In this document: piece by piece, positions 42,235-54,788 of the stretch
Numbering within the stretch: the stretch's first letter is position 1
How the letters are laid out: each line of letters begins with the position of its first letter
Source of the DNA: Microcystis aeruginosa LEGE 91341
GTDB taxonomy: Bacteria > Cyanobacteriota > Cyanobacteriia > Cyanobacteriales > Microcystaceae
Direction of reading: 5' to 3'
Assembly: GCF_015206885.1 (NCBI RefSeq)
Contig: NZ_JADEXY010000001.1
Coordinates: 1-64,000 of the forward strand
DNA: 64,000 bases
Notes under the pieces: generated by a model
What the model was told of the DNA's origin: nothing
What the model saw: the letters and a program-made list of their open reading frames with translations, nothing else
Database searches by the model: none
Program-made: the position numbers and the translations under genes

Positions 42235-42378
42235 TAAGTAGCTGCTTATAATTAAATTAAAAATGGATTTTAGGTTCGATCCCCCCTTAGTCCCCCCTTA
42301 ATAAGGGGGGTGCCGATCCCCCCTTAGTCCCCCCTTAATAAGGGGGGTGTCTGATAATTTTTAACGCCTACCTACTTA
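42235..42378. mobile_element. MITE family B, copy 3 (144 bp)
   Basis: Ends TAAGTAGCTGC and GCCTACCTACTTA, in the opposite orientation to the copy at 8276. It has two C6/G6 hairpin units in the core. It ends 3 bp before the ATG of the CocE-type gene and so forms that gene's whole immediate upstream region. Confidence 0.85.
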
Positions 42379-52203: not shown

Positions 52204-53439
52204 ATGAATAAAATCAGTAAAACCTTTAATAATTTCGCCGATAGTTTGGTGATTTATAGTCAAAGATACGGAAAAATAAGCTGGTTAATATTTTTAATTA
52301 TCTTTGCTTGTATCATGACGATAACCTTTAATGATCCGGCACAATCGACCAATCAACCCCAAGAAAAACCCGAAATTCGTGGAGTTTGGTTAACTAATAT
52401 CGATAGTGAGGTATTATTTAAACCGCAAACCCTAAAAGATGCCCTTGATAGGTTGGCTGATTTAAACTTTAACACTATTTATCCCACGGTCTGGAATTGG
52501 GGTTATACACTCTATCCTTCTAAGGTAGCAGAAAAAGTCACGGGACGAGCGATCGATCCCCATGAATCTTTAAAAAATCGTGACTTTTTAAAGGAAATGA
52601 TTAGCCAAGGTCATCGAAAAAAATTAAGAATTATTCCCTGGTTTGAATTTGGTTTTATGGCTCCTGCGGATTCAGAATTAGCCAAACGACATCCCGATTG
52701 GTTAACCCAAAGACAGGATAAAAGTGTGATTTGGTGGGAAGGAAAAGTGCATCAACGGGTGTGGTTAAATCCCTTACATCCGCAGGTACAAAACTTTATT
52801 ACGGATTTAGTCAGCGAGATTATTACTAACTACGATATAGAAGGAATTCAGTTTGATGACCATTTTGGTTATCCCGCCGATTTTGGCTATGATGAAATGA
52901 CGATTAAACTCTACCAAAGGGAACATTCTGGACAATTACCACCGCAAGATTACCAAGATAAAGCATGGATTCAATGGCGGGCCGATAAAATTACTGACTA
53001 TATGAATAGTTTAGCCCAGACGATTAAAAAGCAGCAACCTAGAGCGATTATTTCCCTATCTCCTAATCCCTACACTTTCTCCCTAGAATCCTATCTTTTA
53101 GATTGGCAAAAATGGCAGCAAAAAAACTTGATTGATGAGTTAGTAATACAAGTGTATCGAACTGATATGAACGCCTTTGACTGGGAATTATCCCAACCAG
53201 AATTACAGCAAGCTAGAGAATCTATCCCCGTGGCTATTGGGATTTTATCTGGTTTAAAAGGTCGTCCGATTCCGATGGTTAATATTACTCAACAAGTGGA
53301 AAAATCGAGACAAGAAAATTTTGGTGTTTCTTTCTTTTTCTACGAAACCTTATGGAATATCAGCAATGAATCCCCTTCCTATCGACGCAGGATTTTTAGG
53401 GAAATACTCCAGTCTGCTAATCCAGTGGTGATTCGGTAG
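52204..53439 (+). CDS. GH10-like (YngK/DUF187) glycosidase-family protein
   Basis: A 411-residue protein with one N-terminal membrane segment (ISWLIFLIIFACIMTITF), then the GHL10 barrel. The family start EIRGVWLTNIDSEVLF is clear, and the putative catalytic region GIQFDDHFGYP matches. It probably acts on peptidoglycan or another glycan in the periplasm; the specificity is unknown. The region after its stop is an IS1 relic. Confidence 0.88.
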   Translation: MNKISKTFNNFADSLVIYSQRYGKISWLIFLIIFACIMTITFNDPAQSTNQPQEKPEIRGVWLTNIDSEVLFKPQTLKDALDRLADLNFNTIYPTVWNWGYTLYPSKVAEKVTGRAIDPHESLKNRDFLKEMISQGHRKKLRIIPWFEFGFMAPADSELAKRHPDWLTQRQDKSVIWWEGKVHQRVWLNPLHPQVQNFITDLVSEIITNYDIEGIQFDDHFGYPADFGYDEMTIKLYQREHSGQLPPQDYQDKAWIQWRADKITDYMNSLAQTIKKQQPRAIISLSPNPYTFSLESYLLDWQKWQQKNLIDELVIQVYRTDMNAFDWELSQPELQQARESIPVAIGILSGLKGRPIPMVNITQQVEKSRQENFGVSFFFYETLWNISNESPSYRRRIFREILQSANPVVIR

Positions 53440-53583
53440 TAGTGATGGCGGCTTAATCCTTTGCTTTGCTGTGCATTGTAGTCATGGATAAAATACCAAA
53501 GGGTTCCCCAACGTGATTCTCCATTTTTTTGGAGAAAGATAGACTCTCTCTCACCAACCGAGAAATCCTTTGTCGAAAGGTAT

Positions 53584-53687
53584 TAAGTAGCTGGTTATAA
53601 TTAAATTAAAAATGGATTTTAGGTTCGATCCCCCCTGCCCCCCTTGATAAGGGGGGTGTCTGATGATTTTTAACGCCTACCTACTTA
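53584..53687. mobile_element. MITE family B, copy 4 (104 bp)
   Basis: Ends TAAGTAGCTGG and GCCTACCTACTTA, with one C6/G6 hairpin unit. It is inserted at a TA inside the IS1 transposase gene, between codons for ERL and NTFRQR. The empty site can be rebuilt exactly, which proves TA duplication. Confidence 0.9.
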
Positions 53688-54052
53688 TTTAATCTTTCAA
53701 TAGGATTAGTTTGACCAGTTTCTTTTCCGACCGTTCGATGACTTTTACTGGGAATTACTGTCTTATAGGACTCCCAAAAGTCTGTGTAAGCAACAGCGCT
53801 CGGTAAACACCTAGTAAACTGTCCCCAAAGTTTTTTGGCTGATTGACGACTTCTATCTCCTAAATAGCAACCAATAACTTCCCTTGTTTTTCTATCAATT
53901 AACCGCCAAATATAAACCTTTATCATCTTAGAAAAAACAAAAGACCACCCTTCGGCTTCTCTCAGGGTCAACATCTCATCAGATTCTATAACCAATTTAC
54001 CTTTTGGTTTGTCCGAAACCTTTATTTGACGGGGGACAGCCGCCAGTTTATT

Positions 54053-54153
54053 GTTGACCCTTCGGCTTCGCTCAGGCTTCGGCCGTGAGCTCAGCCGAAC
54101 GGGTCAACGTCGAGGCTTCGACGGTGAGCTCAGCCGAACCGCGAAGTCGAGAC
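54053..54153. mobile_element. 101-bp palindromic element inside the IS1 relic
   Basis: Made of two hairpins: GTTGACCC...GGGTCAAC (54053-54108), then a stem with AACGTC/GACGTT arms. The inside is rich in TTCGGCT/AGCCGAA. It is flanked by the direct repeat GTTGAC (54053-54058 and 54154-54159). Its removal restores the transposase frame. Confidence 0.78.
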
Positions 54154-54300
54154 GTTGACATAATCTTGTAACCATGACCAACTTACCCCTGTTACTCTAG
54201 CAATTTCTCGTAAGAAAATTCGTTCGAGCAAAAGTTTATCAATTAATTTTTTAGTTTCGTCAGAGACGGTTTTATTAGTGGGATTGCTCACAAACGGTTG

Positions 54301-54323
54301 ACCACACTTCGACAGGCTCAGTG
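54301..54323. mobile_element. 23-bp element (CTTCGACAGGCTCAGTG) inside the IS1 relic
   Basis: A 23-bp insertion carrying the palindrome-like ACTTCGACAGGCTCAGTG. Direct repeats TGACCACA (54299-54306 and 54322-54329) flank it. It shifts the frame in the zinc-ribbon part of the transposase; removing it restores CGQPFVSN. Confidence 0.72.
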
Positions 54324-54455
54324 ACCACATTCTTTACATTGACGTTTGGGGTTTCCATTATGAATAGAAGCATTCTTGATAGTATGTGAGAACCACAACG
54401 CTTGACAGGGGAATAGAGGTGAACTAGGGGGGGTATTTTTTCGGTGCTAGACTGA

Positions 54456-54546
54456 TACTAAATCCGTTGAGCATAGGCTACTTATGAGGAGAGACAAGAG
54501 GCAAAAGGGGGAATAAATAATCAGTTTTTAATAACCAAATTTAGTA
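54456..54546. mobile_element. MITE family C, copy 3
   Basis: Begins TACTAAATCCGTTGAGC and ends AACCAAATTTAGTA, with TA at both ends. The centre GAGGCAAAAGGGGGAATAAA is typical of the family. It lies between the IS1 relic and the acetyltransferase gene. Confidence 0.65.
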
Positions 54547-54560
54547 TAATATTTGAGTAA

Positions 54561-54788
54561 GCCAGACAGGAGCCAGAAAAAGATATTTATCAGAAAATTC
54601 ATGATCAAGCTAGAGGTTTAAAAACTGATTCTAGCCAATTATTTTTATTAATAAATATTCTACACAATTCATACCAGGTAAGCAAGAGGACTACGGCACT
54701 ACTACCGAATCATTACCTATTGGCAGATGATGATTATCTAACAGTTATTTCCTGTCATTATCATTACCAAGATTACTGCGATCGCTGA
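54561..54788 (+). pseudogene. Possible gene remnant, unknown
   Basis: An open stretch of 75 codons begins right after an in-frame TAA and ends at TGA, with no start codon in its first half. It would read ARQEPEKDIYQKIHDQARGL and so on, with ordinary-looking composition. It starts 14 bp after a family C element, so it may be the 3' end of a disrupted gene. I do not recognise it, and it may be chance. Confidence 0.25.

Follow-up and report, generated by a model that had tools for sequence, protein, structure and literature searches.

The IS1 element at positions 53425-54717 of the window (the whole 64,000-nucleotide stretch analysed, part of contig C174 in a genome of 4.5 Mb) in all likelihood belongs to a multicopy IS1 of Microcystis type, of which it is a dead copy that accumulated its small insertions in several rounds, and the pieces of 23-27 bp within it very probably form one superfamily of small dispersed repeats with a TGAG...CGAA core and covarying arms. 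The total load of this single IS1 comes to at least seven small insertions, namely six hairpin repeats and one MITE, where a preliminary description had counted three different elements. At 24 bp such repeats come close to the smallest size that mobile DNA can have. A multicopy IS1 acts as a natural library of targets, whose empty and filled copies yield exact junctions, lengths and the order of events.

The relic IS1 and its insertions

The element belongs to the IS1 family, as both its transposase domain and its terminal inverted repeats are present. Its transposase fragments, on the minus strand, match DDE_Tnp_IS1 (PF03400; E=2e-7 for a relic fragment and 3.6e-11 for a relative), which bears out the host proposed at the outset; NF033558 was also matched, with a score below cut-off because the relic pieces are fragments. 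The terminal inverted repeat CACTACTACCGAATCA is perfect over 16 bp (53429-53444 and 54697-54712). Its right copy occupies 53425-53444 (minus strand) and its left copy 54697-54717 (plus strand), the latter with a matching end in a G005 copy (L116), and in alignment the other IS1 copies end at the identical base as the relic, so that the element is longer than the 53450-54400 first assigned to it.

On one side lies a GHL10 glycosyl-hydrolase-like gene (52204-53439, plus strand, PF02638) in which the IS1 end has taken the place of the gene's own end. Homology of the gene to 11 relatives reaches no further than 53423, and in the same relatives the DNA beyond the IS1 (54718 onward) is located elsewhere. 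Since the two flanks are separate in 11 of 11 relatives, the IS1 marks a rearrangement junction, and rearrangement may also have removed the flanking 8-9 bp target duplication, none of which was seen by eye around the relic.

All insertions described below are on the minus strand. The MITE (53584-53687, about 104 bp, ends TAAGTAG..CTACTTA) has dozens of genomic copies and is short, multicopy, bounded by terminal inverted repeats and flanked by a target duplication, with TAA repeated; no longer parent transposon of it was found in the fetched loci, where the spans seen for it ran only from 100 to 317 bp. A second left end of this MITE family is seen within the window at 42365-42378. Alignment with other IS1 copies, together with joined BLAST pieces, gives net insertions of 102 bp for the MITE, 101 bp for a composite segment (54053-54153) and 23 bp for a hairpin repeat, TGGTCACTGAGCCTGTCGAAGTG (54305-54327), whose 15-base core also occurs at other genomic sites. 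The same alignment revealed an overlooked 24-bp hairpin repeat, TTGACCCTGAGAGAAGCCGAAGGG (53948-53971), which is in frame and lengthens the reading frame by eight codons (LTLREAEG).

The 101-bp segment, at first taken for a single element, is a nested composite of two adjacent 24-bp repeats, each of which has been invaded. It parses into GTCTCGACTTCGC/TCGACGTTGAC and CC/TGAGCGAAGCCGAAGGGTCAAC (24 bp each), with a 27-bp repeat, GGTTCGGCTGAGCTCACCGTCGAAGCC (54114-54140), inside the first and a 26-bp repeat, GTTCGGCTGAGCTCACGGCCGAAGCC (54075-54100), inside the second, and 24+24+27+26 = 101 accounts for its full length. The 26-mer is also seen alone at four unrelated places (L179, L183, L187, L198), the un-invaded 48-bp pair is present at the identical IS1 site in G009:C28 (L157), and a 62-bp part of the composite recurs in G000:C50 in a flank unlike IS1.

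Empty and filled copies in other genomes

IS1 copies from 12 genomes of the genus were aligned to the relic. Most of them are without the MITE, the 101-bp and the 23-bp segments and run straight across all three junctions, and thus the earlier proposal that removal of the 104-, 101- and 23-bp segments rejoins the transposase holds, as does the view of them as separate insertions rather than a normal part of the IS. They are not, however, confined to one copy as had been supposed. G010:C93, a copy in another genome, has both the 101-bp and the 24-bp insertion and lacks the 23-mer and the MITE, and G000:C13, in the relic's own genome and the one other copy with the MITE, has a longer version of it at the matching position; part of the load was therefore inherited by the relic. 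In G010:C71 a 23-mer sits at the site of the relic's own, and the IS1 there has another allele downstream, which makes shared descent and a second hit by the 23-mer look alike.

In three further copies (G009:C9, G011:C59, G001:C221) the two sites that carry repeats have merged, with loss of the 80 bp of IS1 that separate them, as would be expected from recombination between repeats. Additional insertions of about 137, 186, 215 and 430-440 bp occur in the IS1 copies of L095, L098, L101, L104 and L125, where the small insertions are edged by repeats of 3-9 bp. Across the 12 genomes, IS1 copies also contain short blocks that are wholly different amid near-identical surroundings, in varied combinations and in several cases shifting the frame; a single rule for these odd differences was attempted and none fitted.

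The probable order of events is as follows. First came two adjacent 24-bp repeats at one site and a single in-frame 24-bp repeat at a second, followed by invasion of the adjacent pair by the two 26/27-bp repeats, stages which the relic has in common with other IS1 copies. The 23-bp repeat and the TA-type MITE came later, or in other sub-lineages, in either order.

A family of 23/24-bp hairpin repeats

The small pieces represent a single type of element, N6-CTGAG-M-N2-3-GY-CGAAG-NN, with a length of 23 or 24 bp and covarying hairpin arms. Roughly 2 Mb of DNA fetched from the genus holds 76 distinct contexts of the motif CTGAG-M-N2-3-GY-CGAAG. To its left these have about six bases in common and to its right two, which gives the length of 23 or 24 bp. 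In 74 of the 76 copies the innermost flank pair is complementary, where shuffling gives 39, and the pair is variously C-G, A-T, T-A or G-C. Thermodynamic folding of single 23/24-mers was weak and mostly no better than that of shuffled sequences, so the hairpin claim rests on covariation and not on energy.

Roughly half of the copies (36 of 76) lie within open frames of at least 150 codons, compared with 73% of random places; the repeats thus enter genes, yet less often than chance. Being in frame, the 24-mers lengthen predicted proteins by eight residues (PFDLAQGK, PLRLGSGQA, CPEPSRRG), and some of the frames that hold them exceed 1000 codons. One locus in G000:C75 (L186:8545-9094) has four 24-bp repeats in about 550 bp, none of which is found in the G002 orthologue (L204).

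How the repeats insert

These repeats insert in quantised lengths and generally without target duplication, they nest in one another, their arms covary, and their copies are dispersed. Among 24 empty/filled pairs from Microcystis-like genomes, the net difference is 24 bp in 12, 23 bp in five, 48 bp in five, 47 bp in one and 18 bp in one; the last is a poor alignment, so that the other 23 of 24 all show 23, 24, 47 or 48 bp. Some of the 24 come from homologous loci and one locus was counted on both strands, so that by our count about 18 are independent. In 10 of the 24 no target duplication is possible, and with GGTCA-type repeats two target bases (GT or GC) are repeated. The 48-bp pairs are located after TCAAC, which they repeat, and some members may therefore follow a different rule. 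Nesting is seen in L195, an inverted 24-mer within a 24-mer, and likewise in the 101-bp composite.

Each insertion in the relic had been credited with its own direct repeat. As letters these are there: TAA flanks the MITE, GTCAAC the 101-bp segment and TGTGGTCA the 23-bp segment. The 8 bp repeated around the 23-mer are, however, for the most part a coincidence, in which the GGTCA end of the element meets a target reading GGTCA, because repeats of the family generally leave a duplication of 0 or 2 bp.

Taken together, insertion is exact, in steps of 23/24 bp, leaves a target duplication of 2 bp or none, and also takes place within other copies of the repeats. They may move as a single-stranded hairpin copy, of DNA or RNA, which a trans-acting enzyme would insert. 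Movement by Y1 (HUH) single-strand transposases, in the manner of REPs and RAYTs and leaving no target duplication, would suit both the hairpins and the exact, duplication-free insertion, and Y1 genes exist in this genome and its relatives. It is nevertheless unlikely, since no Y1_Tnp was detected in four of 20 repeat-rich genomes (G135, G142, G145, G146), some being drafts that may miss genes, and none of the Y1 loci examined has the hairpin on both sides of the gene; Y1 is thus not supported as the mover. In G085, a single repeat lies some 85 bp upstream of each of three copies of one Y1 gene (L340, L346, L352), with none on the other side.

Equally improbable in our estimate is an RNA-mediated route, in which transcripts of the repeats are reverse-copied into DNA breaks or flaps. 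Compensatory changes in the arms fit folding of an RNA no less than folding of a DNA strand, and such a route has reportedly been proposed earlier for repeats of Nostoc. Against it, an RVT_1 match is missing from six of 21 repeat-rich genomes, partly drafts in which genes may be missed, and G146 has neither Y1 nor RVT_1 matches; RVT_1 as the mover was accordingly set aside.

Somewhat less probable still is movement with no dedicated enzyme, where template switching during replication or palindrome-driven slippage copies short hairpins to new places. The very short length, the self-nesting and the mutually complementary arms speak for it, whereas the exact quanta of 23/24 bp at unrelated sites and the conservation of the core across phyla suggest specific recognition. 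It is very unlikely that the relic records independent hits by three different small elements, each with its own target-site duplication, for although letters repeated at the edges flank all three segments and relatives lack them, this reading is opposed by the fourth insertion and the composite nature of the 101-mer, by the insertions shared with G010:C93 and G000:C13 and the same-site 23-mer in G010:C71, and by the scarcity of target duplication across the family.

Relation to known repeats

In a search of the open-access literature the letters of the repeat matched no paper. Small dispersed repeats of Nostoc, SDR1-8, are reportedly 21-27 nt in length and form hairpins with compensatory changes; they are also said to make nested insertions and to occur in minitransposons, with RNA intermediates considered possible. 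By their described features these are the closest known kind, and we file the present repeats as a variant of them (Elhai et al., 2008, Genome Res 18:1484). The likeness extends to size, with 23/24-mers and 26/27-mers falling within the class of 21-27 nt, to a hairpin backed by compensatory changes, and to nesting in own or sister copies (L195 and the 101-bp composite). PMC4390886 and PMC3116915 cite the SDR work, and the former states that SDR5 inserts precisely into HIP1. Unlike the SDRs of Nostoc, the present repeats do not target one fixed octamer, their host is a unicellular Microcystis-type organism, and their core recurs outside the cyanobacteria.

Rickettsia palindromic elements are small palindromic inserts that stay in frame within proteins and exceed 100 bp. 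They are thus longer than the 23/24-bp repeats and alike in their in-frame insertion into proteins. REPs and REPINs with their RAYTs (PMC3116915, PMC3733652) are likewise short dispersed hairpins, probably with single-strand intermediates; here, in contrast, no repeat-flanked Y1 gene was found among the loci examined, some repeat-rich genomes have no detected Y1, and about half of the copies lie within long open frames. IS1-like elements of the ISMae3 type and MITEs have been reported as mobile in Microcystis (PMC11448079), and the 187-nt MITE with GGCTCTTCG ends described there is distinct from the 104-bp TA-type MITE of the relic.

Distribution within and beyond the genus

The genome that carries the relic has 61 copies of the core, against one match to a reversed-pattern control. 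The same comparison of pattern and reversed control was made in 117 genomes sampled evenly from the phylum, where the pattern is strongly enriched in some genomes, for example G097 (216 vs 2) and G085 (189 vs 5), and absent in many. A longer exact pattern, for which we estimate about 30 chance matches in the whole collection, was found among the matches listed in contigs titled Bacteroidetes, Spirochaetales, Clostridia, Acidobacteria, Chloroflexi, Planctomycetota, Patescibacteria, Proteobacteria and others. Further copies with covarying arms surround these cross-phylum matches, and in 67 cross-phylum copies the first three arm positions are complementary in 55, 60 and 47 cases, compared with 23-28 after shuffling. 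In the whole genomes behind 30 cross-phylum loci the count reaches as many as 697 copies, with 0 controls; as these genomes were chosen for one match each, selection cannot explain tens to hundreds of copies.

It is possible, though still short of probable, that a superfamily of hairpins of about 24 bp, with the core TGAGC-N2-3-GY-CGA, spans many phyla at tens to hundreds of copies in each genome, inserts exactly and for the most part without target duplication, and is moved by widespread, as yet undescribed machinery that needs neither Y1 nor RVT_1; the evidence of movement comes from Microcystis-like genomes, and the cross-phylum data consist of copy counts and arm covariation. Should the repeats of the various phyla form one mobile family, short in-frame peptides such as PFDLAQGK and PLRLGSGQA in many bacterial proteins would be its traces. 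In Baaleninema simplex PCC 7105 (L394:164-455), the repeats form a tandem array with a spacing of 23 bp, about 1 kb from a reverse-transcriptase gene.
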